64,000 bases of DNA from Pseudomonas bijieensis (GTDB taxonomy: Bacteria; Pseudomonadota; Gammaproteobacteria; Pseudomonadales; Pseudomonadaceae). Shown in pieces: positions 28,878-58,129 of the stretch (its first letter is position 1; the number at the start of each line of letters is the position of its first letter). The position numbers were made by a program, and so were the translations under genes. Where the stretch lies: NCBI RefSeq assembly GCF_013347965.1, contig NZ_CP048810.1, forward strand, positions 3,595,501-3,659,500. The letters are read 5' to 3'. A model generated the notes under the pieces. The model did no database searches and had not been told where the DNA came from. It saw nothing but the letters and a program-made list of their open reading frames with translations.

Positions 28878-29606
28878 ATGAATTTTGTGATCAATTTCAA
28901 TATCGCCCAATGGCGCGCGTGGGCCCCTGGGCTCGAAAGCGTGGACGACTGGCAGGCCTGGAGCCGACAGCCGGTCGTATTGCCGCCCAGCGATGCCTCC
29001 CCTGACGTATCGTTCCTGCCGGCCATGCAGCGTCGGCGCCTCAGCCGCCTGGCGCGGATGGCCTTCAGTGTTGGCTGGCCGCTGGCCGAGGATCGGCCGG
29101 ACCTACCGTTGGTCTTTATTTCCCGCCACGGCGAAACCCCACGCACTTTCGAGATTCTCAAGGACCTGGCAGCCGACCAGCCCTTGTCGCCGACCCAATT
29201 CAGCCTGTCGGTGCACAACGCAGTGATTGGCCTGTGGTCGATCATGCGAGGCGAAACCAGCGAAATGACTGCCCTGGCCGCTACCGGCGACGGGTTGGAG
29301 CACGGTGTGCTGGAAGCCGCCGCACTGTTGAACGAAGGCTCGCCGGCGGTGTTGCTGGTGATCACCGAGGAGCAACCCCCGCAGGTCTACGCGCCGTGGG
29401 TCAATGACGTGCCGTTTCCCTATGCCATGGGCTTGCTGCTAACCCCGGGCGACGACTGGCAACTGGACCTGTGTGCGCAAACCGGCCAATTGCCTGGCAG
29501 CGACTGGCCCCATGCCCTGGATCTGTTGCGTACCCTGCTGAACAACGAAACCACCTGCCAACATGCCTGGAAGAATCGTGTATGGACCTGGCAACGCAAC
29601 CGGTGA
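28878..29606 (+). CDS. Beta-ketoacyl synthase-like chain length factor (aryl polyene cluster)
   Basis: 242 aa, related to the N-terminal half of ketosynthases (the ketoacyl-synt_2 family) but with no catalytic TACTS motif; blocks are FISRHGETPRTFEILKDL and FSLSVHNAVIGLWSIM. In aryl-polyene type II PKSs such a truncated KS pairs with an active ketosynthase and is thought to set chain length. It is the first gene of the cluster. The start at 28878 follows GGGTGG; a GTG at 28851 would add nine residues. The next gene begins 25 nt before its stop. Confidence 0.8.
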   Translation: MNFVINFNIAQWRAWAPGLESVDDWQAWSRQPVVLPPSDASPDVSFLPAMQRRRLSRLARMAFSVGWPLAEDRPDLPLVFISRHGETPRTFEILKDLAADQPLSPTQFSLSVHNAVIGLWSIMRGETSEMTALAATGDGLEHGVLEAAALLNEGSPAVLLVITEEQPPQVYAPWVNDVPFPYAMGLLLTPGDDWQLDLCAQTGQLPGSDWPHALDLLRTLLNNETTCQHAWKNRVWTWQRNR

Positions 29607-30391
29607 CCGGTAAACATCGCGACGCCTATTACTGGCGCCTGATCGCGACCGCCGCAAGCTTCGCCCTGTTCGGGCTGGGCGGGCTGTGCCTGCGTTTGCT
29701 GGTGTTTCCGTTGCTGGCCTGGTGGCCCGGCGATGCCCAGGCCCATCGGCAACGGGCCCGTCGCACGGTCGGGCGGTTGTTCTGGTTCTTCATCCGGTTC
29801 ATGGCCCGCACCGGGGTGCTGACCTACCGGATCGACGGCGCCGAACGGCTCGGCCGCCCCGGACAAATGATCATCGCCAATCACCCGTCGCTGATCGACG
29901 TGGTGTTCCTGATCGGGCTGGTGCCCAACGCCAACTGCGTGGTCAAGCAAAGCCTGTGGGACAACCCCTTCACCCGCGGCCCGCTGCGCTCGACCCAATA
30001 CATCAGCAACGACGGCAGCATGGACATGCTTGATGCCGCCAGCGATGCCCTGCAGGATGGCCAGACCCTGATCGTCTTCCCCGAAGGCACGCGCACCCAG
30101 CCCGGCCAGGCACCGGCCTTTCATCGGGGGGCGGCGGCCATTGCCCTGCGGGGTGCGAAAATCCTCACGCCCGTCACCATCAAGGTTTGCCCCACTACTC
30201 TGACCAAGGCCGAACCCTGGTATCGCATTCCCCAGCGCCGCGTGCACTTCAGTTTTCGCGTGGGGGCCGATATAGACCCACAGGCCTTCGCCGCGCTCGG
30301 CCCACCACCCCAGGCTTCGCGCAGGCTCAACGATTTTTTGCATCACTATTTCATCAAGGAGCTCGCCGAAGATGAGCGATCTGCACCGTGA
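29582..30391 (+). CDS. 1-acyl-glycerol-3-phosphate acyltransferase-like protein (aryl polyene cluster)
   Basis: 269-aa PlsC-type acyltransferase. TM segment about 20-45; the catalytic NHPSLID (NHx4D-like, about residue 100) and the phosphate-binding FPEGTRT (about residue 168) are intact. In APE clusters such enzymes are proposed to move the polyene or a fatty chain onto the lipid anchor. The ATG lies inside the preceding gene, and the acyl carrier protein gene overlaps its end by 20 nt. Confidence 0.88.
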   Translation: MDLATQPVTGKHRDAYYWRLIATAASFALFGLGGLCLRLLVFPLLAWWPGDAQAHRQRARRTVGRLFWFFIRFMARTGVLTYRIDGAERLGRPGQMIIANHPSLIDVVFLIGLVPNANCVVKQSLWDNPFTRGPLRSTQYISNDGSMDMLDAASDALQDGQTLIVFPEGTRTQPGQAPAFHRGAAAIALRGAKILTPVTIKVCPTTLTKAEPWYRIPQRRVHFSFRVGADIDPQAFAALGPPPQASRRLNDFLHHYFIKELAEDERSAP

Positions 30392-30629
30392 CATCAAACA
30401 GCTGATCATCGATGCCCTCGGCCTGGAGGACATAAGCATCGACGATATCGGCGACCACCAGACCCTGTTCGGCGAAGGCCTGGGCCTGGACTCGGTGGAT
30501 GCCCTGGAGCTAGGCCTGGCGATCCAGAAGAAGTACGGCATCAAGATCGATGCCGACGCCAAGGACACCCGTAACCATTTCAGCAATGTGGCAAGCCTTG
30601 CGGCCTTCGTCACTGCAAAAAGCGCCTGA
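30372..30629 (+). CDS. Acyl carrier protein 1 (aryl polyene cluster)
   Basis: 85-aa ACP. The phosphopantetheine site is Ser41 in GLGLDSVDALEL, and the four-helix pattern is complete. It resembles the ApeE/ApeF type rather than the fatty-acid AcpP. It overlaps the acyltransferase gene and is followed 9 nt later by a second ACP. Confidence 0.93.
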   Translation: MSDLHRDIKQLIIDALGLEDISIDDIGDHQTLFGEGLGLDSVDALELGLAIQKKYGIKIDADAKDTRNHFSNVASLAAFVTAKSA

Positions 30630-30638
30630 GACCAGACC

Positions 30639-30893
30639 ATGCAAACTCGTGACGACATCTTCAACACCCTGCGCGATGCTCTGGTCGAGCTCTTCGAGCT
30701 GGACCCCGAGCGCGTGACGCTGGAATCGAACCTGTACCAGGACCTGGAAATCGACAGCATCGATGCGGTCGACCTGATCGACCACATCAAGCGTCAGACC
30801 GGCAAGAAAATCGCCGCCGAAGAATTCAAGTCGGTGCGCACCGTCAATGACGTGGTCGAGGCGGTCTATCGACTGGTCCAACCGGCCGCATGA
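30639..30893 (+). CDS. Acyl carrier protein 2 (aryl polyene cluster)
   Basis: 84-aa ACP with Ser40 in LEIDSIDAVDL. It clearly differs from ACP 1, so the two carriers probably do different jobs, for instance starter loading versus elongation, as proposed for the two ACPs of aryl-polyene synthases. The stop overlaps the next ATG by 4 nt. Confidence 0.93.
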   Translation: MQTRDDIFNTLRDALVELFELDPERVTLESNLYQDLEIDSIDAVDLIDHIKRQTGKKIAAEEFKSVRTVNDVVEAVYRLVQPAA

Positions 30894-31435
30894 CCCGGCT
30901 GATTGGCCTCGGCCTGCTGCTGGCGGGCCTGCTGTACCCCTTTGCGGTGTATTTCGGCATGGAGCACTTCGCCCCGTGGCAGTTCGGGTTGCTGCTCGGC
31001 AGCCTGTGGCTGGCCCGGGCATTGCTTGGCAAGGGCGGGCCCGGCAGCCGCTGGATGGCGGCCACGGCGATCGTGTTTTGCGTACTGCTGGCGCTGTTCG
31101 ACAGCCCGCTCCTGCTGCGCTGGTACCCGGTGCTGATCAGCGCGTTCATGCTCGGGCTGTTCGTCCTGAGCCTGAAATACGGCCCGCCGATGATCGAACG
31201 CCTGGCCCGCCTGCGCGAACCGCAGCTACCTGCCAAGGCGGTGGTGTATACCCGCCAGGTCACAGTGGCCTGGAGTGTGTTTTTCCTGTGTAACGGTTTG
31301 CTCGCCGCCGCCCTGACCCTCTGGGCGCCGCTGAGCTGGTGGATGTTGTACACCGGCCTGATTTCCTACGGATTGATGGGGCTGCTGTTTGCCATTGAAT
31401 GGCTCATACGACAACGGGTAAGAGGCCGCCCATGA
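30890..31435 (+). CDS. Inner-membrane protein of aryl polyene clusters (COG4648-like)
   Basis: 181 aa with about five or six hydrophobic helices (residues 3-20, 28-42, 55-72, 80-100, 118-150 and 150-170) and conserved SLKYGPPMIERLARL between them. Proteins of this kind occur in the same position in aryl-polyene clusters, but their job is not known. It is coupled to the genes on both sides (4-nt overlaps). Confidence 0.8.
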   Translation: MTRLIGLGLLLAGLLYPFAVYFGMEHFAPWQFGLLLGSLWLARALLGKGGPGSRWMAATAIVFCVLLALFDSPLLLRWYPVLISAFMLGLFVLSLKYGPPMIERLARLREPQLPAKAVVYTRQVTVAWSVFFLCNGLLAAALTLWAPLSWWMLYTGLISYGLMGLLFAIEWLIRQRVRGRP

Positions 31436-33111
31436 ATTGGATAACACTTGAGCAGATTCTGCTCAGGACTGAACCGGAACGCGCCGTCGCGCTCGATCCG
31501 GCGCTCAGTCACACGCAACTGCGGGGCGCGGCGTTGAGCCTGGCGGCCGGCCTGCAAGCCCGTGGCGTGCGGCATGTGGCGGTGCACCTGGAAGACGCCG
31601 CCGACCTGGCCATCGCCCTGCTCGGCGCCTGGCGCGCCGGAGTCCGGGTCTTGCTTCCCGCCGACCTGCAGGTGCAGACGCGCCAGCGCTGGGCGGCGGA
31701 CGTGGACCTGTGGCTGACCGACCAGCCCGGCGACACGCATCCCAACGACGTGCAACAGGCGCCGATGGACGCCGCCGAACTGGACCTCGATCACTGCTGG
31801 CTGAGCCTGTGCACCTCCGGCTCCAGCGGCGAGCCCAAGCGCATCGAGAAAACCCTGCGCCAGTTGAGTAACGAAGTCCACGCCCTGGAGCACTTGTGGG
31901 GCGCCGACCTGGGGCCGGCCTGCATGATCGGCAGCGTTGCCGCCCAGCATATCTACGGGTTGCTGTTCCGGGTGCTGTGGCCGCTGTGCGCCGGGCGCCC
32001 GTTCGTGCGTCGGCAATTGGCGTTTCCCGAGGACCTGCAACGCGCCAGCCGCGAACAACCGGCCTTCGCCTGGGTCGCCAGCCCGGCGCTGCTCAAGCGC
32101 ATGGGCGATAACCTCGATTGGCCGGCCCTGAGCAGCGTGCGCCGGGTGTTCTCCTCTGGCGGCGCCTTGCCCCCCGAGGCTGCACAAAGCTTGCAGCAAC
32201 GTCTGGGACAATGGCCGACGGAAATTTTCGGCAGTTCGGAAACTGGCGGTATCGCCTGGCGTCAGGGTGACGGATTGTGGCAGCCCTTTGCCGGCGTCGA
32301 GCTCAGCCAGGACAGCGACGGCGCCTTGCTGATCGCTTCGCCCTATCTGCCGGCCGGGCATGTGGAACACACCGCCGACGCGGCGCGAATCGCCACAGAT
32401 GGACGCTTTGAGCTGCTCGGGAGACTGGATCGCATCGTCAAGCTCGAAGAAAAACGCATCTCCCTGCCGATGCTGGAACAAGCGCTGATGGCCCACGACT
32501 GGGTCAGCGAAGCGCGGCTGGGGGTGGTGCAGGAGAAGCGCGCCTCCCTTGGCGCACTGGTGGTGCTCAGCGAAAACGGCCTGCACGCCTTGCGCAACCT
32601 GGGCCGGCGCGCCGTTACCGAAGGCCTGCGTCGGCACCTGAGCGAACATTGCGAAACCCTTGCCCTGCCCCGGCGCTGGCGCTGGCTGCGGCAGTTGCCG
32701 CTCAACGCCCAGGGCAAGTTGCCCCAGGCCGAGGTCGAGGCGTTGCTGATGGCGCCACGTCCCAAAACCCCTGACGTGCTGGAGCAAGTCGAAACCGACG
32801 GTGAGTGGAACCTGCAACTGGTCGTGCCTGCGGACCTTGCATACTTCAGCGGCCACTTCCCCACCGCGCCAGTGTTGCCAGGCGTAGTGCAGGTCGACTG
32901 GGCCTTGAGCCTGGGCCGGCAATTGATGGACCTGCCGCCCCGGTTCGTCGGCATGGAGGTGCTGAAGTTCCAGCAACTGGTTCGCCCTGGCGATGAAGTC
33001 CAACTGCACCTGCGCTTCGACCGCGAGCGCGGCAAGCTGTACTTTGCCTACCGCAATGACACGGCGGCCTGTTCCAGTGGGCGGATTGTGTTGGGGGAAA
33101 ACAATGCCTAG
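31432..33111 (+). CDS. Aryl-acid AMP-ligase fused to a FabA/FabZ-like dehydratase domain
   Basis: 559 aa, two parts. Residues 1 to about 430 are an adenylate-forming ligase: [14 protein letters not shown] (P-loop), [31 protein letters not shown] and [11 protein letters not shown] with the catalytic Lys near the end. Residues about 450-555 are a hot-dog domain with [20 protein letters not shown] (His near 475), the pattern of ApeI-type dehydratases. The ligase would load the aryl starter onto an ACP and the second domain dehydrate the growing chain. These functions are usually on separate proteins. A REPIN follows before the next gene. Confidence 0.88.
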
Positions 33112-33129
33112 GCACCTGTACAAATCACT

Positions 33130-33226
33130 GTGGCGAGGGAGCTTGCTCCCGTTGGGCTGCGAAGCAGCCCCTGGTATTTCAAGAGCGAGTGCTTCGCACT
33201 TGAGCGGGAGCAAGCTCCCTCGCCAC
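33130..33226. repeat. REPIN inside the pigment operon
   Basis: Inverted GTGGCGAGGGAGCTTGCTCC ends with an internal GCGAGTGCTTCGCACTTG hairpin. This is the only large gap in an otherwise overlapping gene run (33112-33257), so it may tune expression of the downstream genes. Confidence 0.85.
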
Positions 33227-33257
33227 AAAATGCTCCTTGGCCACCGAGACATGCCGC

Positions 33258-33992
33258 ATGCATAACCCCTGCGCCGTCATCCCGGTCTACAACCACGAAA
33301 CCGCCATCTCGGCCGTGGTCCAGGCGTTGCTCGCCAACGGCCTGCCTTGTGTGCTGGTGGATGACGCCAGCAGCCCGGCGTGCGCCGCCGTGCTGGAGCG
33401 GTTGGCCGAAGACGAGCGGGTTCATCTGGTCAGGCTGGCGATCAACCAGGGCAAGGGTGGCGCGGTGATGACCGGCCTGCGGGAAGCGGCGCGCCTGGGT
33501 TTCAGCCACGCCTTGCAGGTGGACGCCGACGGACAGCACGATCTTGGCGACGTGAAGACTTTCATCGAGCAGTCCCGCGCCCACCCGGACGCGGTGATCT
33601 GTGGTTATCCGCACTACGACGCCAGCGTGCCGAAAGGTCGTCTGTACGCGCGCTACCTGACTCACATCATGGTCTGGATCAACAGCCTGTCCCTGCAAAT
33701 CCGCGACTCCATGTGCGGCTTTCGGGTCTATCCCCTGCCACCGACCCTGGCGCTGATCGACTCGGCCAACATCGGCAAGCGCATGGATTTCGATTCGGAC
33801 ATCCTCGTGCGCCTGGCCTGGCGCAATCAACCGATGCACTGGCTGCACACCCGGGTCCATTACCCCCAGGACGGGGTCTCGCACTTTCGCCTGTTCCACG
33901 ACAACGTGCTGATTTCCAGCATGCACACCCGGTTGTTCTTCGGCATGCTGGTGCGCTTTCCCCTGATTCTCTGGCGACGGTGGCGGGCATGA
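33258..33992 (+). CDS. Family 2 glycosyltransferase (aryl polyene cluster)
   Basis: 244 aa, GT-A fold: VIPVYNHETAISAVVQALL, VLVDDASS, NQGKGGAVMTGL and the DXD-like QVDADGQHD (about residues 87-95), then MCGFRVYP. In APE systems such an enzyme is thought to attach a sugar in the lipid anchor. There is no membrane domain of the dolichyl-phosphate kind. The next gene starts within its stop (ATGA). Confidence 0.88.
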   Translation: MHNPCAVIPVYNHETAISAVVQALLANGLPCVLVDDASSPACAAVLERLAEDERVHLVRLAINQGKGGAVMTGLREAARLGFSHALQVDADGQHDLGDVKTFIEQSRAHPDAVICGYPHYDASVPKGRLYARYLTHIMVWINSLSLQIRDSMCGFRVYPLPPTLALIDSANIGKRMDFDSDILVRLAWRNQPMHWLHTRVHYPQDGVSHFRLFHDNVLISSMHTRLFFGMLVRFPLILWRRWRA

Positions 33993-34933
33993 GCCTTCAG
34001 GCAGACAAGCAACATTGGGCCGACCGCCAGGAGCGCGGCAGTTTCTGGCTGATGAAACTCACCGCAGTCGCCGCCAAGGTGCTCGGCCGGCGCTTATTGA
34101 CCCCGGTGCTGTACGGCATCGTCCTGTACTTCTTCATTTTCGGCCGCAGCGCCCGCCAGGCCGCCTGGCAATACCAGCAGCGCCTGGCCGAATGGAGCGA
34201 GCGCCCCGAACTGCGCCCGACCCACCGGCGGGTGTTCGGCCAGTTCATGGCGTTTGCCGATTCCCTGTTGGACAAGCTCGATGTCTGGAACGGCAAGCTG
34301 AGCATCGACCAGATCGAAATCGTCGACCCGGCGCTACTGCGCAATCACTTGCGTGACGCCCGCGGGCAGATGCTGGTGGGCGCGCATCTTGGCAACCTGG
34401 AAATGTGCCGGGCCCTGGCCGAGCTGGGCGAGAAGGTGACCATGAACGTGCTGGTGCACACCAAGCACGCCGAGCAGTTCAACCGCTTGCTCGGTGAAGC
34501 CGGCGCCACGCACCTGCGGCTGATCCAGGTCAGCGAGCTGGACCCGGTGATCATGTTGCAACTGAGTGAACGCCTGGAGCGTGGCGAGTGGCTGGCGATT
34601 GCCGGCGACCGCGTACCGCTGCACGGCGGACGCAGTGTGACCGTGGATTTCATGGGCCACCCGGCGGCATTCCCCCAGGGGCCCTGGTTGCTGGCTGGCC
34701 TGCTGAAATGCCCGGTCAACCTGCTGATGTGCCTCAAGCACGAGGGACGCTATCGCGTCACCCTGGAACCCTTCGCCGATGCCGTGGCGTGGAAACGCAA
34801 CGACCGCGAGCAAGTGATCGCCCACTGGGCCGGCCGCTATGCCGAGCGCCTGGCGCAGTACTGCCTCCAGGGCCCCCAACAGTGGTTCAACTTTTACCCT
34901 TTCTGGAAGACCGATGACGATGCCCACTCTTGA
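33989..34933 (+). CDS. LpxL/HtrB-like lipid acyltransferase (aryl polyene cluster)
   Basis: 314-aa member of the lipid A late-acyltransferase superfamily. TM segment about residues 30-55; catalytic HxxxxE appears as VGAHLGNLEMCRAL (His and Glu near residues 131-136), with AGDRVPLHGGRSVTVDFMG as the second family block. It is probably used to acylate the pigment's lipid or sugar anchor rather than lipid A. It overlaps the glycosyltransferase stop by 4 nt and the lyase start by 20 nt. Confidence 0.85.
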   Translation: MSLQADKQHWADRQERGSFWLMKLTAVAAKVLGRRLLTPVLYGIVLYFFIFGRSARQAAWQYQQRLAEWSERPELRPTHRRVFGQFMAFADSLLDKLDVWNGKLSIDQIEIVDPALLRNHLRDARGQMLVGAHLGNLEMCRALAELGEKVTMNVLVHTKHAEQFNRLLGEAGATHLRLIQVSELDPVIMLQLSERLERGEWLAIAGDRVPLHGGRSVTVDFMGHPAAFPQGPWLLAGLLKCPVNLLMCLKHEGRYRVTLEPFADAVAWKRNDREQVIAHWAGRYAERLAQYCLQGPQQWFNFYPFWKTDDDAHS

Positions 34934-36458
34934 GCCGGTAACCTTCGGCGAATGCCCCTTGCGCATTGAAGATGTGCTGGCCCTGGCCAACCGCCGGGCG
35001 CCGACGCAGTTGCAGGATGACCCGGCGTTCCGCCAACGGATTGCCAAGGGTGCGCAATTCCTCGATTCCCTGCTGGACAAGGAAGGCGTGATCTACGGCG
35101 TGACCACCGGTTACGGCGACTCCTGCGTGGTGGCCGTGCCGTTGCACCACGTCGAGGCCCTGCCGCGTCACCTGTACACGTTCCATGGCTGCGGCCTGGG
35201 CAAGTTGCTCGACGCCCAGGCCACCCGTGCGGTGCTGGCGGCGCGTTTGCAGTCGCTGTGCCACGGCGTGTCGGGGGTGCGGGTGGAACTGCTGGAACGC
35301 CTGCAGGCCTTCCTTGAACACGACATCCTGCCGCTGATTCCGGAAGAAGGCTCGGTGGGCGCCAGTGGCGACCTGACCCCGCTGTCCTACGTCGCCGCGA
35401 CCCTGTCCGGCGAGCGGGAAGTGATGTTCCGTGGCGAGCGGCGCCTGGCTGCGGACGTGCACCATGAACTGGGCTGGACCCCGCTGGTGCTGCGGCCCAA
35501 GGAAGCCCTGGCGCTGATGAACGGCACCGCCGTGATGACCGGCCTGGCCTGCCTGGCCTTCGCCCGCGCGGACTATCTGCTGCAACTGGCGACCCGCATC
35601 ACCGCGCTGAACGTTGTCGCCCTGCAAGGCAACCCGGAACACTTCGACGAGCGCCTGTTCGCCGCCAAGCCACACCCGGGGCAGATGCAAGTCGCCGCGT
35701 GGCTGCGCAAGGACCTGGCGATCGACGCGCCGACCGCGCCGCTGCATCGCCTGCAGGATCGCTATTCCCTGCGCTGCGCCCCTCACGTGCTCGGCGTACT
35801 GGCGGACAGCCTGGGCTGGTTGCGTTCGTTCATCGAAACCGAACTCAACAGCGCCAACGACAACCCGATCATCGACGCCGAAGCCGAGCGCGTACTGCAC
35901 GGCGGGCATTTCTACGGCGGGCATATCGCCTTCGCCATGGACAGCCTGAAGAACCTGGTGGCCAACGTCGCCGACTTGCTGGATCGCCAGCTCGCGCTGC
36001 TGGTGGACGAGCGTTACAACCACGGCCTGCCGAGCAACCTGTCCGGCGCCAGCGCCGAGCGGGCGATGCTCAACCATGGCTTCAAGGCCGTGCAGATCGG
36101 CACCAGTGCCTGGACCGCCGAAGCCCTGAAAAACACCATGCCGGCCAGCGTGTTCTCGCGCTCCACCGAATGCCACAACCAGGACAAGGTGAGCATGGGC
36201 ACCATCGCCGCCCGGGACGCGATCCGCGTGCTGGAGCTGACTGAGCAAGTGGCCGCCGCAACGCTGCTGGCCGCCAACCAGGGCGTGTGGCTACGCAGCC
36301 GCGCCGAAGACGCGCGACCGCTGCCCCCGGCCCTGGCCGCCATGCACCAGCAACTGGCCGAGGATTTCGCCCCAGTCATCGAAGACCGCGCCCTGGAAGG
36401 CGAACTGCGACTGTGCCTGCAACGCATCGCCGACCAACACTGGAGGCTGCATGCGTAA
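34914..36458 (+). CDS. Aromatic amino acid (HAL/PAL/TAL family) ammonia-lyase
   Basis: 514-aa MIO-dependent lyase that removes ammonia from His, Phe or Tyr. The MIO tripeptide Ala150-Ser151-Gly152 lies in GSVGASGDLTPLSYVA; VYGVTTGYGDS, LMNGTAVMTGL, YSLRCAPHVLG and ELNSANDNPIID are all kept. Inside a pigment cluster it most likely makes cinnamate or p-coumarate as the aryl starter, as in flexirubin-type clusters. The selectivity loop reads RHLYTFHGCG, and I cannot align it firmly enough to choose the substrate. The start is MTMPTLEP; a second ATG lies two codons later. Confidence 0.9.
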   Translation: MTMPTLEPVTFGECPLRIEDVLALANRRAPTQLQDDPAFRQRIAKGAQFLDSLLDKEGVIYGVTTGYGDSCVVAVPLHHVEALPRHLYTFHGCGLGKLLDAQATRAVLAARLQSLCHGVSGVRVELLERLQAFLEHDILPLIPEEGSVGASGDLTPLSYVAATLSGEREVMFRGERRLAADVHHELGWTPLVLRPKEALALMNGTAVMTGLACLAFARADYLLQLATRITALNVVALQGNPEHFDERLFAAKPHPGQMQVAAWLRKDLAIDAPTAPLHRLQDRYSLRCAPHVLGVLADSLGWLRSFIETELNSANDNPIIDAEAERVLHGGHFYGGHIAFAMDSLKNLVANVADLLDRQLALLVDERYNHGLPSNLSGASAERAMLNHGFKAVQIGTSAWTAEALKNTMPASVFSRSTECHNQDKVSMGTIAARDAIRVLELTEQVAAATLLAANQGVWLRSRAEDARPLPPALAAMHQQLAEDFAPVIEDRALEGELRLCLQRIADQHWRLHA

Positions 36459-39789: not shown

Positions 39790-40943
39790 TGACCCTGCTG
39801 TTCTGGCTCATGGCCCTGGGCTTGTTCGCTGTCGCAACCCGCATAGGCTGTCGCTTCGGGTTGATCCCGATTGTCAGCCAGTTGTTGCTGGCGACCTTCG
39901 GCCTGCCCCTGCTGATGTATTTCTGGATCGAGCCGGGCTGGCAGCTCAGCGGCGCGCAACTGGTGTCGCCGGTGTGGCTGAAGAACCTCTACAGCCTCGC
40001 GTTCGCGCTGTTGCTGGGGCACATTCTCAGCGACGTGATCGACCTGCGCCTGGATCGCCAGAGCGTGAAGATCGCCCTGCCCAGCTTCGTCGTTCCGTTT
40101 GCCTGCGGCCTGGCGACAGCGTTCTGGCTGCTGCCGCCCCAACCCTGGATCAGTTCCCTGGCGGTGGGGCTGCTGTTTGCGATCACCGCGATCCCGGTGC
40201 TGTACCTGTACCTGCGTCACATCGACTATCCGCCCGCCGCCACACGGCGATTGGTGCAAACGGCGATCCTGATCGACCTGGCCTGCTGGAGCCTGTTCGG
40301 CCTGGCCCAGGGCAGCCTCCACTTGAGCAGCCTGTTGCTGCCGCTGGCCTGCGCCGGCGTGCCGCTGCTGTTGCGCCTGCTCGGCCTGCGCCAGCCGTTG
40401 CTGTACAGCGGCGGGTTCTTTGCGCTGTTGGTGGTGGCCGAGCACTACCGGCTCAATGCACTGATCGTCGGCATCGGCTATCTGCTGTGCATGGCCGCGC
40501 TCAAAGTGCCCTTGCGGCTACCGCTCGATGCCGCCTGGATGCAGGGTTTGCAGACGTACCTGGCGATCCCGCTGATCCTCACGTTCGGCATTGTGCAGAT
40601 CAACGTCCACAGCGCCATGAACAGCCTCGACTGGGTGCAATTGACGGCGTTGCTGCTGTTGCCCATCGCCAGCAAACTGCTGGGCAACTGGCTGGGGCTG
40701 GGATGGGCCGCCGCTCCCTTCGCCGGCGCCAGTCGTTGGCGCGAAAGTGTCTTGCTGAATATTCGCGGCTTGAGTGAAATCGTCTTCCTCAATCTGCTCT
40801 TGCAACAACAGCTCATCAGCCCCGCGCTGTACTTCATGCTGATGCTGATGGGACTGATCGCGACATTGCTGCCGGCCTTGGCCGGTTTCCACCGTATTCC
40901 CTCGATTGCCGTCCCGGCCAGGAGCTCCAGTGCCAATAGTTGA
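39786..40943 (+). CDS. Kef/CPA2-like integral membrane protein in the pigment cluster
   Basis: 385 aa, about eleven or twelve hydrophobic helices. Similarity to the Na+/H+ exchanger (CPA2) fold is seen in LYSLAFALLLGHILSDVIDL, LLFAITAIPVLYLYLRH, ILIDLACWSLF and RESVLLNIRGLSEIVFLNLLL. There is no cytosolic TrkA-N or RCK domain. It is not a usual part of the E. coli-type APE cluster. The start ATGATG at 39786 overlaps the exporter stop. Transport function is only inferred. Confidence 0.75.
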   Translation: MMTLLFWLMALGLFAVATRIGCRFGLIPIVSQLLLATFGLPLLMYFWIEPGWQLSGAQLVSPVWLKNLYSLAFALLLGHILSDVIDLRLDRQSVKIALPSFVVPFACGLATAFWLLPPQPWISSLAVGLLFAITAIPVLYLYLRHIDYPPAATRRLVQTAILIDLACWSLFGLAQGSLHLSSLLLPLACAGVPLLLRLLGLRQPLLYSGGFFALLVVAEHYRLNALIVGIGYLLCMAALKVPLRLPLDAAWMQGLQTYLAIPLILTFGIVQINVHSAMNSLDWVQLTALLLLPIASKLLGNWLGLGWAAAPFAGASRWRESVLLNIRGLSEIVFLNLLLQQQLISPALYFMLMLMGLIATLLPALAGFHRIPSIAVPARSSSANS

Positions 40944-42177
40944 AATGGAACGTCGGCAGGTCGTCGTCATCGGCGCAGGCCCTTCCGGCGCTATCGCGGC
41001 GGCGCTGCTCAAGCGCAAGGGCCACGATGTGCTGGTCATCGAGCGCCAGCATTTCCCCCGGTTCTCCATCGGCGAGAGCCTGTTGTCCCATTGCCTGGAT
41101 TTCGTCGAAGAAGCCGGCATGCTCGACGCGGTGAATGCCGCTGGATTCCAGCGCAAGAACGGCGCCGCGTTCGCCTGGGGTGAGCGCTACAGCGCCTTCG
41201 ATTTCGGCGACACCTTCAGCAACGGCAAGCCCACGACCTTCCAGGTGCAACGCGCCGACTTCGACAAACTGCTGGCCGACCAGGCTGCGCTGCAAGGCGT
41301 GGAGATCCGCTACGGCCAAGCCATTGCCTGCGCCGATTTCACTCTCGCCAAGCCGCAACTGGGCGTGCAGCGCGAAGACGGCAGCGAGTACCGGGTCGAA
41401 GCCGACTTCGTGCTCGATGCCAGCGGCTATGGCCGAGTCCTGCCGCGCCTGCTGGACCTTGAGGCACCGTCGAACTTCCCGGTGCGCCAGGCCGTGTTCA
41501 CCCATATTGAAGATCGCATCGACGCGGCGACTTTCGACCGCGAAAAAATCCTCATCACCACCCATCCGAGCAAGCGCGACGTGTGGTTCTGGACCATTCC
41601 GTTCAGCGGCGGGCGTTGCTCGGTGGGCGTGGTCGCCGCCGCGGAACATTTCGCTGGCCGCACCGACGACCTCGATGCCTGCCTGCGCGGCTTCATCGAC
41701 GAAACCCCAAGCCTGGCCGGCGTGCTGCGCAACGCCGTGTGGGACACCCCGGCGCGGACCATCGGCGGCTACTCGGCCAACGTCAAGACCCTGCATGGTC
41801 CTGGCTTCGCCCTGCTGGGCAACGCCGCGGAATTCCTCGACCCGGTATTCTCCTCCGGCGTGACCATCGCCATGCGTTCGGCGAGCATGGCCGCCGACGT
41901 ACTCCACCGTCAGTTGCAAGGCCAAAGCGTGGACTGGCAAAGCGAGTTCGCCGAACCCCTCAAGCGCGGCGTCGACACCTTCCGCTGCTATGTCGAGGGC
42001 TGGTACGCCGGCACCTTCCAGGACGTGATTTTCTATACCGAAGGTTCGGACGACATCCGTCGCATGATCAGCTCGATCCTGGCCGGCTACGCCTGGGATC
42101 AGCGCAACCCGTTCGTCAGCGAACCCAAGCGGCGCCTGCGCATGCTTTCGGAAATCTGTGCGAGCCCGGCACCATGA
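40930..42177 (+). CDS. FAD-dependent halogenase-like oxidoreductase (aryl polyene cluster)
   Basis: 415-aa flavoprotein. GAGPSGAIAAALLKRKGHD is the FAD GxGxxG site. FSIGESLLSHCLDF, GFQRKNGAAFAW (Lys at the position used by PltA-type halogenases) and WFWTIPFS, a WxWxIP motif, are the three signatures of flavin-dependent halogenases. Xanthomonadins, related pigments, carry bromine, so aryl-ring halogenation is plausible. The motifs also occur in some non-halogenating relatives. The GTG start at 40930 has AGGAG 5 nt upstream; an ATG at 40945 is the alternative. Confidence 0.82.
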   Translation: MPIVEMERRQVVVIGAGPSGAIAAALLKRKGHDVLVIERQHFPRFSIGESLLSHCLDFVEEAGMLDAVNAAGFQRKNGAAFAWGERYSAFDFGDTFSNGKPTTFQVQRADFDKLLADQAALQGVEIRYGQAIACADFTLAKPQLGVQREDGSEYRVEADFVLDASGYGRVLPRLLDLEAPSNFPVRQAVFTHIEDRIDAATFDREKILITTHPSKRDVWFWTIPFSGGRCSVGVVAAAEHFAGRTDDLDACLRGFIDETPSLAGVLRNAVWDTPARTIGGYSANVKTLHGPGFALLGNAAEFLDPVFSSGVTIAMRSASMAADVLHRQLQGQSVDWQSEFAEPLKRGVDTFRCYVEGWYAGTFQDVIFYTEGSDDIRRMISSILAGYAWDQRNPFVSEPKRRLRMLSEICASPAP

Positions 42178-42187
42178 GTCAGCAACC

Positions 42188-42916
42188 ATGAGCTACCTGA
42201 GTGACAACTACGTCGAAGAAACCCGCTTCGGCTTCTGGTTCCTGCGCAGCCACACCTGGCAGCACCATGTGTTGCGCGTAGCGATCAACGACCTGCGCAG
42301 CCTGTTCAGCACCCCGCTGCCGGCCAACCCGGTGCTGCTGGATGCCGGCTGCGGCCAGGGCAAATCATTCCAGTACCTGCGTCAGGTGTTTGCGCCGCAA
42401 CGCCTGATCGGCGTGGATGCCGACCCCCACAGTCTGGATCTGAGCCGTGAGGAAGCCGCGCGCCAGGGCATCACCGTGGAGCTGATCGGCAGCGACTGCG
42501 CGACATTGACGGTGCCCGATGCCAGCGTCGACCTGCTGTTCTGCCACCAGACCTTCCATCACCTGGTGGAGCAGGAAAAGGCCCTCGCCGAGTTCTATCG
42601 CGTACTCAAGCCCGGCGGCTACTTGATGTTCGCCGAATCCACCGAAGCCTACATCGACACCTGGGTGATTCGCTGGCTGTTCCGCCATCCCATGCACGTG
42701 CAGAAAAGCGCCGCGCAATACCTGGAGATGATCCGCGAGCAGGGTTTCCAGTTCGAGGCCCGCAACGTGTCCTACCCGTACCTGTGGTGGAGCCGTGCCA
42801 AGGATTTCGGCCTGCTGGAACGCTTTGGCCTGCGTCGTCCCAAGCCATTTGGCGAGCGGGAGGAAACCCTGGTCAACGTAGTGGCTCGCAAACCTCTCGA
42901 AGGGGCTGCCGGATGA
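42188..42916 (+). CDS. Class I SAM-dependent methyltransferase (aryl polyene cluster)
   Basis: 242 aa. VLLDAGCGQGKSFQYL (motif I, about residues 50-65), GVDADPHSLDL (motif II), DLLFCHQTFHHL and FYRVLKPGGYLMFAEST (motif post-II/III). A methyltransferase acting on the aryl head or its hydroxyl is common in APE clusters. It is tightly spaced after the flavoenzyme and overlaps the next ATG by 4 nt. Confidence 0.9.
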   Translation: MSYLSDNYVEETRFGFWFLRSHTWQHHVLRVAINDLRSLFSTPLPANPVLLDAGCGQGKSFQYLRQVFAPQRLIGVDADPHSLDLSREEAARQGITVELIGSDCATLTVPDASVDLLFCHQTFHHLVEQEKALAEFYRVLKPGGYLMFAESTEAYIDTWVIRWLFRHPMHVQKSAAQYLEMIREQGFQFEARNVSYPYLWWSRAKDFGLLERFGLRRPKPFGEREETLVNVVARKPLEGAAG

Positions 42917-43395
42917 TCCGTGGCCTGCTGATCGCCTGTGTGTTGCTGCTCAGTGCCTGCGCCAGCCACGCGCCGCTGCCCGCGCGCATGCCGACCCTGG
43001 CGTTGCCGATGCAACTGCACATCGAGCGGACAATGGCCGGCCAACGCCAGGACTGGTTGCTGGTGATCCAGCGCGAAGACGCCAGCATCCGTTGGTCGAT
43101 GATGGACCCGCTGGGCATTCCAGCGGCCCGTCAGCGCCTGGTCGCTGGCCAGTGGCAGGCCGACGGTCTGCTGCCGCCCAACGCCGAGGCCCGGGAGTTG
43201 TTCGCCGCGCTGCTGTTCGCCCTGACCCCCGAAGCCGAACTGCCCGACAACTACCCGGCCGCCCGGCAACAGGCGTCGCAACGGAGCCTCGATAGTCGCT
43301 GGCTGGTGCGCTACAAGCAGCCGCTGGATTTTGAACTGAGCCTGCCCCAAGGCCCCCGCTACCGCATCACACCGTTGACCGAGAACGCCCCATGA
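42913..43395 (+). CDS. DUF3261 outer-membrane lipoprotein (aryl polyene cluster)
   Basis: 160-aa lipoprotein with lipobox LLLSAC at residues 10-15, followed by ASH, so it should be sorted to the outer membrane. The mature part (RQDWLLVIQREDASIRWSMM, LPDNYPAARQQ) matches DUF3261, a family tied to aryl-polyene clusters. It could receive the pigment lipid at the outer membrane, as LolB does for lipoproteins; that role is an inference from the neighbouring LolA-like gene. Confidence 0.84.
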   Translation: MIRGLLIACVLLLSACASHAPLPARMPTLALPMQLHIERTMAGQRQDWLLVIQREDASIRWSMMDPLGIPAARQRLVAGQWQADGLLPPNAEARELFAALLFALTPEAELPDNYPAARQQASQRSLDSRWLVRYKQPLDFELSLPQGPRYRITPLTENAP

Positions 43396-44588
43396 CCGCC
43401 TATTTGAATGCCCTCGGGGTGATCTGCGCCCTGGGCCGCGACAGACATAGCGTCGCGCGCAACCTGTTTGCCGGCGACTGCTCGGGCGTGCGCATCGAGG
43501 ATGGCTGGGTGGCCGAACGCGCCTTGCCGGTCGCCTCGGTGCCGGGGGAACTCGCGCCCATCCCCCCTGCCCTTGCGGCGCAACGCAGCCGCAACAACCA
43601 ACTGCTGCTGGAAGCCGGGTTGCAGATTCGCGCAGAGATCGACCAGACCATCCAGGCCTATGGTCATGCCCGTATCGGCATCGTCCTGGGCACCAGCACG
43701 TCGGGCATCGATGAGGCCAGCCAGGGCATCGCCCACTACCTGCGCGAACAACGCTTCCCCGATGGCTACGACTATCAGCAACAGGAACTCAGCGCGCCGG
43801 CCAATTTTCTTTCCGACTGGCTCGGCCTGAGCGGTCCGTCCTACGTGATCTCCACGGCCTGCACCTCCAGCGCCCGCGCCTTGATGAGTGCCCGACGCCT
43901 GCTGGACCTGGGCCTGTGCGATGCCGTGCTGTGCGGTGGCGTGGACAGCCTGTGCAAACTGACCCTCAACGGTTTTTCCGCACTGGAAGCGGTATCGAGC
44001 GAACGCTGCAATCCGTTTTCGGTGAACCGCAGCGGCATCAACATCGGCGAAGCGGCGGTGCTGTTCCTGATGAGCAAGACCCCGGGAGACGGCCCCAGGA
44101 TCGCCCTGCTGGGCGACGGCGCCAGCTCCGATGCCCATCATATTTCCGCCCCCGAGCCCAGCGGTCGCGGCGCCCGCCAGGCCATGGAAAAAGCCCTGCA
44201 TTGCGCGGGCCTCGAAGCCAGCCAGATCGACTACCTGAACCTGCACGGCACCGCCACGCAGCACAACGACGCCATGGAGAGCCAGGCCGTGGCCGGGCTG
44301 TTCCCGGCGGGTGTGCCCTGCTCGTCCACCAAGCCCATGACCGGCCATACCCTCGGCGCGGCCGGGGCGCTGGAAGCGGCGTTCTGCTGGCTGGCCCTGA
44401 GCCCCCAAAACAGCGCCCAGGCCCTGCCACCGCATGTCTGGGACGGCCAGGCCGATCCTGCGTTGCCGGCGCTGGACTGGGTCACCGCCAGCACCCGCCT
44501 GAACCCGGCCATCCCGCGCCGCCTGATGAGCAATTCATTTGCCTTCGGCGGCAACAACGTCAGCCTGATTATCGGAGACGCCCCATGA
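43392..44588 (+). CDS. Beta-ketoacyl-ACP synthase (KS) A (aryl polyene cluster)
   Basis: 398-aa FabF-fold ketosynthase with intact triad: Cys157 in STACTSS, His285 in NLHGTAT and His319 in MTGHTLGAAG. C-terminal NSFAFGGNNVSLI is kept. It condenses malonyl-ACP units in polyene growth, probably partnering the chain-length-factor protein or the second KS. It is linked to its neighbours by 4-nt overlaps. Confidence 0.93.
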   Translation: MTAYLNALGVICALGRDRHSVARNLFAGDCSGVRIEDGWVAERALPVASVPGELAPIPPALAAQRSRNNQLLLEAGLQIRAEIDQTIQAYGHARIGIVLGTSTSGIDEASQGIAHYLREQRFPDGYDYQQQELSAPANFLSDWLGLSGPSYVISTACTSSARALMSARRLLDLGLCDAVLCGGVDSLCKLTLNGFSALEAVSSERCNPFSVNRSGINIGEAAVLFLMSKTPGDGPRIALLGDGASSDAHHISAPEPSGRGARQAMEKALHCAGLEASQIDYLNLHGTATQHNDAMESQAVAGLFPAGVPCSSTKPMTGHTLGAAGALEAAFCWLALSPQNSAQALPPHVWDGQADPALPALDWVTASTRLNPAIPRRLMSNSFAFGGNNVSLIIGDAP

Positions 44589-45052
44589 TTGACTGGCCGC
44601 TCGCCGAACTGCTGCCCCACGCAGGGGACATGATCCTCATCGACCGGATCCTGTCGTTCGATGACGAACAGATCCATACCCACACCACCGTCAAGCCTGG
44701 TGGTTTGTTCAACCGCGAAGACGGCGCGCTGCCGGCCTGGGTCGGCATCGAGCTGATGGCCCAGAGCGTCGCGGCGTTTGCCGGTTGCCATGCACGCCGG
44801 CGCGGCGATGCCGTGGAGCTGGGCTTTTTGCTCGGCACCCGCAAGTTCGAATGCAACGTCGACTGTTTTCCCGTCGGTGCCGAGCTGAGCATCCACGGCG
44901 TGCGCTCCCTGGAAGACGACAACGGCATGGGCGTGTTCGAATGCCACATCCACGCCCCCGGCATCCATGCCACGGCCCGGCTCAACGTTTTCCGTCCGCC
45001 CAAGGCCGCCCATTACCTTCATGAACCGTCCGCAACAGGAAACCCGTCATGA
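44585..45052 (+). CDS. Hot-dog 3-hydroxyacyl-ACP dehydratase (ApeP-like)
   Basis: 155 aa. LLPHAGDMILIDRILSFD opens the protein with the His of the hot-dog dehydratase site; WVGIELMAQSVAAFAGCHARRRG follows. This is the ApeP-type dehydratase, which with the ApeI-type domain (here fused to the ligase) removes water to form the conjugated double bonds. The stop overlaps the ketoreductase ATG by 4 nt. Confidence 0.88.
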   Translation: MIDWPLAELLPHAGDMILIDRILSFDDEQIHTHTTVKPGGLFNREDGALPAWVGIELMAQSVAAFAGCHARRRGDAVELGFLLGTRKFECNVDCFPVGAELSIHGVRSLEDDNGMGVFECHIHAPGIHATARLNVFRPPKAAHYLHEPSATGNPS

Positions 45053-45777
45053 CTGAATCCGTACTGGTCACCGGCTCCAGCCGTGGCATCGGCCGCGCCA
45101 TCGCCCTGCGCCTGGCCGAGGCCGGGCACGACATCGTGCTGCATTGCCGCAGCGGCCGCGCCGAGGCCGAAGCGGTCCAGGCAGAAATCCAGGCCCTGGG
45201 CCGCCAGGCGCGAGTACTGCAATTCGACGTGTCCGACCGCGCTGCCTGCAAAGCGACTCTCGAAGCCGACGTCGAAACCCACGGCGCCTATTACGGCGTG
45301 GTGCTCAATGCCGGCCTGACCCGCGATGGCGCCTTCCCGGCCCTGAGCGAAGACGACTGGGATGTGGTGATGCGCACCAACCTCGACGGTTTCTACAACG
45401 TGCTGCACCCGGTGATGATGCCGATGATCCGGCGTCGCGCCGCCGGGCGGATCGTCTGCATCACCTCGGTCTCCGGGCTGATCGGTAATCGCGGGCAGGT
45501 CAACTACAGTGCTTCGAAGGCCGGTTTGATCGGTGCGGCGAAGGCGTTGGCAATCGAGCTGGGCAAGCGCAAGATCACCGTCAATTGCGTCGCGCCCGGC
45601 CTGATCGACACCGCCATGCTCGATGAAAACGTACCCGTGGAAGAACTGATGAAAATGATCCCCGCCCAGCGCATGGGCACTGCGCAAGAAGTGGCGGGTG
45701 CGGTGAATTTCCTGATGTCCGCCGAAGCCGGCTACATCACCCGGCAAGTCCTGGCCGTCAACGGAGGCTTGTGCTGA
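45049..45777 (+). CDS. 3-ketoacyl-ACP reductase (FabG-like, aryl polyene cluster)
   Basis: 242-aa short-chain dehydrogenase. TGSSRGIGRAIALRLA (NADPH site), NAG at about residue 85, catalytic Ser in ITSVSGLIGNRGQ and YSASKAG (Tyr and Lys, about residues 152-156). It reduces the 3-keto group after each condensation (ApeQ-type role). A TGATG junction with the next KS gives a 1-nt overlap, and GGAGG lies within its last codons. Confidence 0.94.
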   Translation: MTESVLVTGSSRGIGRAIALRLAEAGHDIVLHCRSGRAEAEAVQAEIQALGRQARVLQFDVSDRAACKATLEADVETHGAYYGVVLNAGLTRDGAFPALSEDDWDVVMRTNLDGFYNVLHPVMMPMIRRRAAGRIVCITSVSGLIGNRGQVNYSASKAGLIGAAKALAIELGKRKITVNCVAPGLIDTAMLDENVPVEELMKMIPAQRMGTAQEVAGAVNFLMSAEAGYITRQVLAVNGGLC

Positions 45778-47003
45778 TGAAGCGCGTTGTCGTCACCGGC
45801 ATGGCCGGTATCACCTCCATAGGCAGCGACTGGGAAACCATCGCCGCCAACTTCGCCGCCAATCGCAGCGGCATCCGGCGCATGGATGAGTGGGACCGCT
45901 TCAGCGAACTGAACACGCGGCTGGCCGGCCCCATCGACGACTTCCAGGTCCCGGCCCACTGGACCCGCAAGCAATTGCGCAGCATGGGCCGCGTCTCGCG
46001 CCTGGCGGTCGCCGCGGCGGAACAGGCCCTGGCCGACGCAGGCCTGTTGGGCGAGGAGTCGATCAAGGACGGGCGCATGGGCGTGTCCTGTGGCTCGTCC
46101 ACCGGCAGCACCGACGAAATCAAGGCGTTCGGCAACATGCTGCTCAACAGCGTGGCCGAAGGGCTGAACGCCAACTCCTACGTGCGGATGATGCCGCACA
46201 CCACGGCAGCCAACATCAGCATCTTCTTTGGGCTGACCGGGCGCCTGATCCCCACCTCCAGCGCCTGCACCAGCGGCAGCCACGGCATCGGCTATGCCTA
46301 CGAGGCCATCAAGTTCGGGCGCCTGCCGCTGATGCTGGCCGGTGGTGCCGAAGAGCTGTGCCCGACCGAAGCGATGGTCTTCGATGCGCTGTACGCCACC
46401 AGCCTGAAAAACGATGCGCCGCAAACCAGCCCACGTCCCTACGACAAGGGCCGCGATGGCCTGGTGATCGGCGAAGGTGCCGGCATACTGGTACTCGAAG
46501 AACTGGAACACGCCCTGGCCCGTGGCGCAAAAATCCATGCCGAGATCGTCGGCTTTGGCAGCAACGCCGACGGCCAGCACGCCACCCGACCCGAACTGAG
46601 CACCATGCGCCGGGCCATGGAGCTGGCCCTGGAAGACGCCGGCCTCGAACCCTCGGCCATCGGCTACGTCAACGGCCACGGCACCGCGACTGAGCAGGGC
46701 GACATCGCCGAGACCCTGGCCACCAGCAGCCTGTTTGGCGAACACATGCCCATCAGCTCGCAAAAGAGCTTCCTCGGCCACACCCTGGGTGCCTGCGGGG
46801 CGCTGGAGTCCTGGTTCAGCATCGAAATGATGAATCGCGACCTGTACGTGCACACCTTCAACCTCGATGAGGTCGATCCCCAGTGCGGCAAGCTCGATTA
46901 CCTGCGCAACGAATTCCGGCCGATGAGCCACGAATACGTGATGAACAACAACTTCGCCTTTGGTGGGGTCAACACCTCGCTGATCTTCCGCCGCTGGCGC
47001 TGA
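45777..47003 (+). CDS. Beta-ketoacyl-ACP synthase (KS) B (aryl polyene cluster)
   Basis: 408-aa ketosynthase closest in style to FabF: Cys164 in SSACTSGSHG, GYVNGHGTATEQGD and SFLGHTLGACG carry the two His, and NNNFAFGGVNTSLIF closes the fold. It is one of two active KSs in the cluster and probably the main elongating enzyme (ApeO/ApeR-type). A 39-bp gap separates it from the last gene of the run. Confidence 0.93.
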   Translation: MKRVVVTGMAGITSIGSDWETIAANFAANRSGIRRMDEWDRFSELNTRLAGPIDDFQVPAHWTRKQLRSMGRVSRLAVAAAEQALADAGLLGEESIKDGRMGVSCGSSTGSTDEIKAFGNMLLNSVAEGLNANSYVRMMPHTTAANISIFFGLTGRLIPTSSACTSGSHGIGYAYEAIKFGRLPLMLAGGAEELCPTEAMVFDALYATSLKNDAPQTSPRPYDKGRDGLVIGEGAGILVLEELEHALARGAKIHAEIVGFGSNADGQHATRPELSTMRRAMELALEDAGLEPSAIGYVNGHGTATEQGDIAETLATSSLFGEHMPISSQKSFLGHTLGACGALESWFSIEMMNRDLYVHTFNLDEVDPQCGKLDYLRNEFRPMSHEYVMNNNFAFGGVNTSLIFRRWR

Positions 47004-47042
47004 ATCGGATTCAAAACCCTGTTACCCCTCGTCAAGGAGACC

Positions 47043-47492
47043 ATGATGTCGTTGAAGAAAATCGCCGTAACCGCCGCCCTGTTGCTCAGCACCCTGCCAA
47101 GCCTCAGCCAGGCCCGTGATACCGCGCTGTTCCTGCCGTTCGACAAAGTCGTCGCCGAGGCCATCCGCACCGGCAAGATCGACGGCAGCGTGAAGTTCTA
47201 CCTGGCCGGCAACAAACCGGCCGGCAACGTCACCGTGATCAGCCCAGGGGCCGTGACCAACAAGAAAACCAACGCCTTCAACAAATCCGATGAGGTGGCT
47301 TGCGAATGGGTGCTGCAATCAGCCCTGATCAGCCTGCACCAAGCCGCCAAGAACGCCGGCGCCAACGCTGTCACCAACATCGTCAGCTTCTACAAGAGCA
47401 ACGAACGCAAGGACCCGACCACCTATGAATGCCACGCTGGCGCGATCATGGCGGGCGTTGCGTTGAAAGGGGATCTGGCGAAGGTGCAATAA
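47043..47492 (+). CDS. Periplasmic protein of unknown function (often mis-named 'excinuclease')
   Basis: 149 aa. Signal peptide about residues 1-24 (LLLSTLPSLSQAR). The mature part has VKFYLAGNKPAGNV, TNKKTNAFNKSDEVACEW, NAGANAVTNIVSFY and YECHAGAIMAGVALKGDL. I recall similar secreted proteins labelled excinuclease ATPase subunit, but this one has no ATPase motif. The position, 39 nt after the last ketosynthase with AAGGAGA upstream, suggests it belongs to the pigment operon. Its role is unknown. Confidence 0.75.
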   Translation: MMSLKKIAVTAALLLSTLPSLSQARDTALFLPFDKVVAEAIRTGKIDGSVKFYLAGNKPAGNVTVISPGAVTNKKTNAFNKSDEVACEWVLQSALISLHQAAKNAGANAVTNIVSFYKSNERKDPTTYECHAGAIMAGVALKGDLAKVQ

Positions 47493-48453: not shown

Positions 48454-48459
48454 TTCCAA

Positions 48460-56455: not shown

Positions 56456-56457
56456 GT

Positions 56458-56913: not shown

Positions 56914-56916
56914 GGG

Positions 56917-58125: not shown

Positions 58126-58129
58126 GGCG

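Follow-up and report, generated by a model that had tools for sequence, protein, structure and literature searches.

The window analysed here is a stretch of 64,000 nucleotides from the 6.73 Mb single-contig genome of Pseudomonas bijieensis (RefSeq assembly GCF_013347965.1, contig NZ_CP048810.1, positions 3,595,501 to 3,659,500). Between positions 28878 and 47492 it carries 21 genes, all on the plus strand, which very probably constitute the standard aryl-polyene (APE) cluster of Pseudomonas, a kind reported as similar to the APE Vf cluster. Such clusters, which specify yellow membrane pigments, are already known and are carried by most of the Pseudomonas genomes sampled, and in this respect the find is largely ordinary. 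A preliminary description, made from the DNA letters alone, had recognised an aryl-polyene/xanthomonadin-type cluster, and this identity is supported. It had also regarded an ammonia-lyase, a halogenase-like flavoenzyme and a Kef-type membrane protein (below called the antiporter) as non-standard additions pointing to a distinct, possibly halogenated product. That the three are non-standard did not hold, as all of them are regular in the APE clusters of Pseudomonas.

Organisation of the cluster

As described before, most of the 21 genes overlap or touch. The distances between neighbours range from -25 to +39 bp, the exception being a gap of 146 bp 5' of the glycosyltransferase gene. Nineteen of the 21 genes had a match in Pfam or NCBIfam; three of these, the small membrane protein (30890), the exporter (37450) and the DUF3261 protein (42913), showed weak, below-cut-off matches alone. 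Neither the antiporter nor the small protein encoded by the last gene (the terminal protein) matched any Pfam or NCBIfam model.

The gene set is what would be looked for in an APE cluster. It comprises a ketosynthase (KS; ApeO), a KS-like chain-length factor (ApeC) and a second KS (ApeR), together with acyl carrier proteins (ACPs), a ketoreductase (KR), the dehydratases ApeI and ApeP, an aryl-acid ligase and a thioesterase. Acyltransferases, a LolA-like protein and an RND-like exporter (resistance-nodulation-division; its match is weak) are present as well, and so is the ammonia-lyase, a characteristic gene of Pseudomonas APE clusters. Pfam and NCBIfam thus bear out the apparently complete type II polyketide synthase set and the lipid-attachment and export genes of the preliminary description. 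Its distinction between two active KSs and a KS-like chain-length factor was also confirmed: the active-site Cys could be read in both full KSs (STACTSS and SSACTSG) and none was seen in the protein encoded at 28878. The best PDB relatives were 6qsp (345.8 bits) and 7f28 for ApeO, and 4ewg (572.6 bits) and 7f27 (528.8 bits) for ApeR; some of these we take to be APE ketosynthases. By Pfam, none of the 21 proteins was a regulator or had a dialkylresorcinol-type (darA/darB) domain, as stated before; dar genes were not searched genome-wide. Likewise, Pfam revealed no XanB2-type chorismatase giving 3-hydroxybenzoate among the 21 proteins, the rest of the genome not being searched.

Distribution and synteny in Pseudomonas

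Of 119 Pseudomonas genomes, 91 have ApeO (E <= 1e-90) and 90 the lyase (E <= 1e-200). The flavoenzyme was detected in 86 (E <= 1e-60) and the antiporter in 63 (E <= 1e-30), and 59 gave a match to the terminal protein (E <= 1e-8). Among the 91 ApeO-positive genomes, 89 had the lyase, 85 the flavoenzyme, 62 the antiporter and 57 the terminal protein, genomes without a match being worked out by elimination. Where ApeO was lacking, these four genes were found only in the fragmented assembly G076 (650 contigs), apart from a terminal protein in G091. Two of the ApeO-positive genomes gave no lyase match: the locus of G080 shows the lyase broken into pieces, and that of G094 lacks it. The antiporter was accompanied by the flavoenzyme in 61 of the 62 ApeO-positive genomes that carry it (Fisher p 0.012, kinship ignored).

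For 40 of the 91 genomes with ApeO, selected so as to include the six that lack the flavoenzyme, gene order was examined by tblastn in 20 kb around the cluster. Query pieces started inside the gene for the flavoenzyme (by 3 residues), the lyase (1-3) and the LpxL-like protein (13), and were 1-10 residues too long for the family 2 glycosyltransferase, the methyltransferase and the DUF3261 protein. All 40 loci were collinear, so the arrangement is not due to chance. The lyase was found in 39 loci, the methyltransferase in 37, the flavoenzyme in 34, the antiporter in 27 and the terminal protein in 26; the other 16 genes occurred in all 40. Damaged copies were seen too: one antiporter counted as present (L048) is a 90-residue match, the flavoenzyme of G022 gave a partial match and that of G064 has an internal stop. 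The flavoenzyme of the window shares 98% identity with its counterparts in Pseudomonas thivervalensis, which places the host near the P. corrugata/brassicacearum group.

These counts agree with published surveys. APE clusters were reported from 23 of 37 surveyed Pseudomonas genomes (PMC8704066) and from every P. corrugata and P. mediterranea strain that one study examined (PMC4528175), and an ammonia lyase is named among the characteristic genes of Pseudomonas APE clusters (eLife 2021; PMC8719888). Together with the precedents in PMC8719888 and PMC3949708, the counts in 119 genomes rule out that the three genes are novel. Since they are routine in Pseudomonas, no reason is left to call the pathway distinct.

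The flavoenzyme and the question of halogenation

In all eight aligned homologues of the flavoenzyme the residues K76, W220, W222, I224 and P225 (numbering of the first row) were invariant. They form a Lys plus WxWxIP pattern, which we take to be the signature of flavin-dependent halogenases. The best solved relative is nevertheless 3nix, deposited as a flavoprotein/dehydrogenase and matched over nearly the full length with 363.9 bits, whereas the next PDB match, a named halogenase, reached 150.5 bits. Among NCBIfam models the halogenase CmlS came first, with 159 bits far below its cut-off of 900; the QhpG monooxygenase (125 bits) and the geranylgeranyl reductase superfamily (119.8 bits) also matched below cut-off.

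Two readings have to be weighed. The chances are about even that the enzyme is a non-halogenating monooxygenase or dehydrogenase acting on the pigment, either at its aryl head or at its polyene. This would agree with 3nix, an unassigned flavoprotein, as the best structure match, with the QhpG and geranylgeranyl reductase matches and with the precedent of arcuflavin, a pigment proposed to be a nonbrominated aryl-heptaene (PMC3949708); the full conservation of the signature residues in eight sequences speaks against it. The other reading, a true halogenase that would place Br or Cl onto the phenol ring or the polyene as in xanthomonadins, seems rather doubtful. It draws on the signature residues, on the CmlS match and on the halogenase gene reported for the xanthomonadin clusters in two species of Xanthomonas with brominated pigments (PMC3691225). 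Against it stand the much higher score of 3nix, the absence of the gene from six of the 91 ApeO-positive genomes (four Dollo losses in the 40 chosen loci), the internal stop in one further genome, and arcuflavin itself, which is nonbrominated although its predicted loci list a halogenase, arcA, a putative counterpart of the flavoenzyme (PMC3949708). The arcuflavin example means that a halogenated product does not follow from the gene. Halogenation by the flavoenzyme is possible, and the earlier suggestion of a possibly halogenated product is weakened. In openly licensed full text, judged by titles and the starts of abstracts among the matches listed, we found no paper on the flavoenzyme or the antiporter of Pseudomonas APE clusters.

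The ammonia-lyase and the starter unit

The cluster lyase has the ASG triad of enzymes with the 4-methylideneimidazole-5-one (MIO) cofactor. Its motif 1 is F-H (Y-H in two of eight cluster lyases), compared with S-H in L066, a reference histidine lyase that scores above both HutH cut-offs. In motif 2 the Glu of L066, presumably a mark of histidine lyases, is replaced by Gln in all eight cluster lyases. The ASG triad combined with a motif 2 residue that differs from histidine ammonia-lyase (HAL) is the pattern of a tyrosine ammonia-lyase (TAL), and the Gln at the HutH Glu position suggests that the enzyme converts tyrosine to 4-coumarate, giving a tyrosine-derived starter. A similar combination is known from FlxA of Chitinophaga pinensis, which has a HAL-like motif 1 and a motif 2 like those of TAL and phenylalanine ammonia-lyase and prefers tyrosine 1010-fold over phenylalanine (PMC3992019). 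The best NCBIfam score was that of the BagA/FevW tyrosine lyase (409.1 bits, cut-off 1000); all models scored below cut-off, and so the cut-off of the curated tyrosine lyase was not reached either. Since the genome also encodes a UbiC chorismate lyase elsewhere, 4-hydroxybenzoate is an alternative starter.

Several points weigh against a standard cluster with a tyrosine-started polyene. The HutH models give the lyase higher scores (391.9 and 379.2 bits; cut-offs 524 and 539) than FlxA does (312.7 bits; cut-off 700), and the substrate of the lyase is deduced from motifs alone. In the relative G094 the lyase has been lost cleanly and the cluster kept, which shows that the gene is not indispensable for keeping the cluster. 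The pigment of this genome is putative, and the likeness to APE Vf of V. fischeri is that given in papers (PMC8719888). A histidine ammonia-lyase recruited by chance and without a role in the pigment, as the HutH scores and the His of motif 1 shared with a HutH might suggest, is nonetheless highly improbable, given the Gln in eight of eight cluster lyases, the same mixture of motifs in the flexirubin-starting FlxA (PMC3992019) and the presence of the gene in 89 of 91 ApeO-positive genomes and elsewhere only in the fragmented G076.

The antiporter and the terminal protein

Sequence searches with the protein encoded at 39786 gave no Pfam, NCBIfam or meaningful PDB match, and three of three homologues matched no Pfam family up to E 10, PF00999 included. 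It would be wrong to conclude that the gene is unidentifiable. A model predicted from an alignment of 20 sequences (mean pLDDT, predicted local distance difference test, 84.8) gave NapA as the top Foldseek match (E 4.6e-7, TMq 0.63, root-mean-square deviation 5.5), followed by other Na+/H+ exchangers. The predicted fold is that of a Na+/H+ antiporter, the name that databases often give to its relatives (sodium:proton antiporter). All 20 aligned rows have Asp164; L037, a relative outside the alignment, has Glu at this position. Elsewhere in the window, at 16343-18130, lies the gene for an ordinary Na+/H+ exchanger that has TrkA_C and CorC_HlyC domains and, unlike the cluster antiporter, matches PF00999 (199.6 bits).

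The terminal protein has 149 amino acids and 1981 relatives at E <= 0.001. Many of these are named 'excinuclease' and some 'YbjQ (UPF0145 family)'. The name 'excinuclease' has no support from Pfam or NCBIfam, and family and PDB sequence searches returned nothing useful. The predicted model is confident (mean pLDDT 91.1) and resembles DUF74 proteins, with a best E value of 4.5e-3 and none at 0.001. It also resembles 1y2i, which we take to be YbjQ, and, less closely, RcsF. In an alignment of 22 rows Cys86 and Cys129 do not vary. The gene also lies beside APE genes in betaproteobacteria and myxobacteria. An envelope-related function in the placement of the pigment would be a guess.

Occurrence outside Pseudomonas

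A search of 369 class-level genomes gave relatives of ApeO in 82, among them the genome of the window. In 20 of these 82, stretches on both sides of the match were inspected. A close lyase (62-84% identity) was present in four loci and a HutH-like one (30%) in one. The flavoenzyme was close (46-75%) in eight loci, distant (24-33%) in nine and lacking in three, and tblastn detected the antiporter in none of the 20. In the nine genomes with distant copies (e.g. L051, L069, L084) the 3nix-like enzyme is replaced by another flavoenzyme family. The copy of L084, the only one compared with the PDB, is 30% identical, and its closest PDB entries are the named halogenases 8zop and 5buk. A search with a dehydratase family found none of 14 named control genomes.

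A scan with the flavoenzyme alignment yielded at least 581 relatives, of which the best 80 were kept and their neighbourhoods of about 10 kb around the match inspected. ApeO, ApeP, ApeQ and ApeR were all present in at least 72 of the 80, and the lyase as well in at least 58; because several loci are incomplete, these counts are lower bounds. The hosts among the best 80 include Stutzerimonas, Comamonas, Cupriavidus, Marinobacter, Methylobacter, Herbaspirillum, Collimonas, Corallococcus and Archangium. Lyase and flavoenzyme thus join APE genes in other proteobacteria and in myxobacteria. The antiporter was found by tblastn in 27 of the 80 loci, all titled Pseudomonas. As it was seen in Pseudomonas loci alone, it looks to be the lineage-specific one among the three 'extra' genes at the tblastn sensitivity used.

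Natural losses of single genes

The antiporter and the flavoenzyme have been lost cleanly and repeatedly. Eight of the 40 loci lack the antiporter, with 50-243 bp between the tblastn matches of ApeM and the flavoenzyme (all distances given here are between tblastn matches). Five others lack both genes, leaving 6-135 bp between ApeM and ApeB. L033 has kept the antiporter and lost the flavoenzyme together with the methyltransferase. In one of the eight antiporter-less loci (L027, from G094) the lyase is missing too, and ApeJ and ApeK are 69 bp apart. Dollo counting on a tree built from four cluster proteins gave four losses of the flavoenzyme and ten of the antiporter, outgroup included; these figures are indicative, since the method assumes neither regain nor transfer and the 40 loci were not drawn at random.

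Comparison with known systems

Pseudomonas APE clusters resembling APE Vf (MIBiG BGC0000837, cited in PMC8719888) have a type II polyketide synthase with an ammonia lyase and an acyltransferase as characteristic genes, as here, and the gene order is conserved across the genus. Judged by domain or by position, our cluster has counterparts of the genes apeB to apeR in the ape cluster of E. coli CFT073 (PMC8253772). It differs in that the ApeH and ApeI domains are joined in one open reading frame (ORF), in four further genes (those for the lyase, the halogenase-like enzyme, the antiporter and the terminal protein), and in that no counterpart of the lipoprotein ApeA was recognised. The statement that the cluster has more genes than the E. 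coli set was therefore correct. The E. coli APE is predicted to use 4-hydroxybenzoate from UbiC (PMC8253772).

The arcuflavin loci of Azoarcus sp. BH72 share with the cluster LolA, exporter, ACP, ligase, KS, reductase and dehydratase genes. Their listed halogenase arcA and Na+/H+ antiporter arcG are putative counterparts of the genes described here. Unlike our cluster they form two unlinked loci and include a XanB2-type chorismatase and dar genes, and a lyase does not appear among the genes listed (PMC3949708).

In the flexirubin clusters of Chitinophaga pinensis and Flavobacterium a tyrosine ammonia-lyase and an aryl-acid ligase start the polyene, as would be the case here. Flexirubin is a dialkylresorcinol ester (PMC3992019), whereas the 21 genes include no dar-type domain, and the cluster lyase stays below the cut-off of the FlxA model. 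Xanthomonadin clusters, too, specify an aryl polyene, with a halogenase gene in two Xanthomonas species (PMC3691225, PMC3949708) and, as described for Lysobacter, without one (PMC3691225). The xanthomonadin ring probably derives from 3-hydroxybenzoate made by XanB2 (PMC3691225, PMC3949708), a type of gene not found among the 21 of our cluster.

Feature list and surroundings

The features of the cluster are listed in Table 1. Start codons are the first plausible ATG, picked by eye, and the coordinates are the corrected ones. The ORF for the ligase-dehydratase fusion has an alternative start at 31399. The name ApeG for the gene at 30890 is presumed from its position.

Table 1. Genes of the aryl-polyene cluster in the window (S-adenosylmethionine is abbreviated SAM)
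Feature	Position	Strand	Evidence
ApeC-like KS2 domain protein, chain-length-factor type	28878..29606	+	PF13723 265.8 bits; no active-site Cys seen
ApeD-like acyltransferase	29582..30391	+	PF01553
Acyl carrier protein 1 (ApeE-like)	30372..30629	+	PF00550
Acyl carrier protein 2 (ApeF-like)	30639..30893	+	PF00550
Small membrane protein, ApeG position	30890..31435	+	no Pfam at E<=1e-3; weak septation protein A-like matches
Starter-unit adenylating ligase fused to ApeI-like dehydratase (ApeH+ApeI)	31432..33111	+	PF00501 + PF22818, one ORF
Family 2 glycosyltransferase	33258..33992	+	PF00535
LpxL-like acyltransferase (ApeJ-like)	33989..34933	+	PF03279
MIO-type aromatic amino-acid ammonia-lyase, probably tyrosine	34914..36458	+	PF00221 533 bits; ASG triad, F-H, Gln
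4HBT thioesterase (ApeK-like)	36451..36876	+	PF13279
LolA-like carrier (ApeL-like)	36873..37466	+	PF19574; flexirubin LolA2 NF053544 below cut-off
RND/MMPL-like exporter (ApeM-like)	37450..39789	+	weak below-cut-off HpnN/HAE3; MMPL at E 2.8
Na+/H+-antiporter-fold membrane protein ('Kef-type'), variably present	39786..40943	+	Foldseek NapA E 4.6e-7, TMq 0.63
Flavin-dependent halogenase-like enzyme	40945..42177	+	PF04820/PF01494; WxWxIP + Lys; 3nix 363.9 bits
SAM methyltransferase (ApeB-like)	42188..42916	+	PF08241
DUF3261-like protein, ApeN position	42913..43395	+	PF11659 E 2.9e-4, below cut-off
Ketosynthase ApeO	43392..44588	+	NF006618 535.8 bits; 6qsp 345.8 bits
ApeP dehydratase	44585..45052	+	PF22817 68 bits
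Ketoreductase ApeQ (FabG-like)	45049..45777	+	NF004200 394.9 bits
Ketosynthase ApeR	45777..47003	+	NF006587 726.6 bits; 4ewg 572.6, 7f27 528.8 bits
Small terminal protein, signal-like N-terminus (by eye)	47043..47492	+	weak YbjQ/RcsF-like fold; two Cys invariant in 22 rows

Upstream of the cluster, where 0.3 promoter-like and 0.7 terminator-like matches were expected, scans returned one of each, the promoter-like one at 28764-28792; neither is informative. At the 3' end the scans gave no promoter-like or terminator-like match. A gene for a ParA/MinD-like ATPase (PF13614) at 27770-28558 diverges from the cluster start. Just 3' of the cluster, the stretch 48001-50000 has a G+C content of 0.514, compared with about 0.60-0.65 around it, and few ORFs, one of them encoding a DUF2846 protein on the minus strand (49036-49563). 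This stretch is possibly a foreign insert. Type II secretion system genes (GspL, GspK, secretin) follow at 53137-61650 on the minus strand.

Proposed pathway and implications

Gene content and synteny are results of this analysis; the enzyme activities and the product proposed here are drawn from the named families and from published work on aryl polyenes, flexirubins and xanthomonadins. The mechanism that fits best is that published for APEs, with a starter probably derived from tyrosine. The lyase would deaminate L-tyrosine to 4-coumarate, with 4-hydroxybenzoate from UbiC as the alternative, and the ligase domain would load the aryl acid onto an ACP. The KS/chain-length factor pair (the genes at 43392 and 28878) and the second KS would then add malonyl units, each of which the KR and the two dehydratases would turn into a double bond, giving an aryl polyene. 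The thioesterase may free the acid and the methyltransferase may modify the ring. The acyltransferases, the glycosyltransferase, the RND-like exporter, the LolA-like protein and the DUF3261 protein would serve lipid attachment and transfer to the outer membrane, where the aryl polyene would act as a protective pigment. The halogenase-like flavoenzyme would oxidise or halogenate as an optional tailoring step, and the antiporter may be an optional accessory, perhaps (this is a guess) for ion balance during export.

The 'extra' genes can be regarded as settled: they are routine in Pseudomonas. A bolder idea, which we consider unlikely, is that in most Pseudomonas species the aryl polyene is derived from tyrosine, halogenated and anchored to a lipid, with the halogenase and the antiporter as a removable, repeatedly lost tailoring module. 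If this were true, close natural variants with and without halogenation would exist side by side. Relatives with clean losses of the antiporter, of the halogenase-like enzyme and, once, of the lyase provide a natural experiment on the role of each gene.

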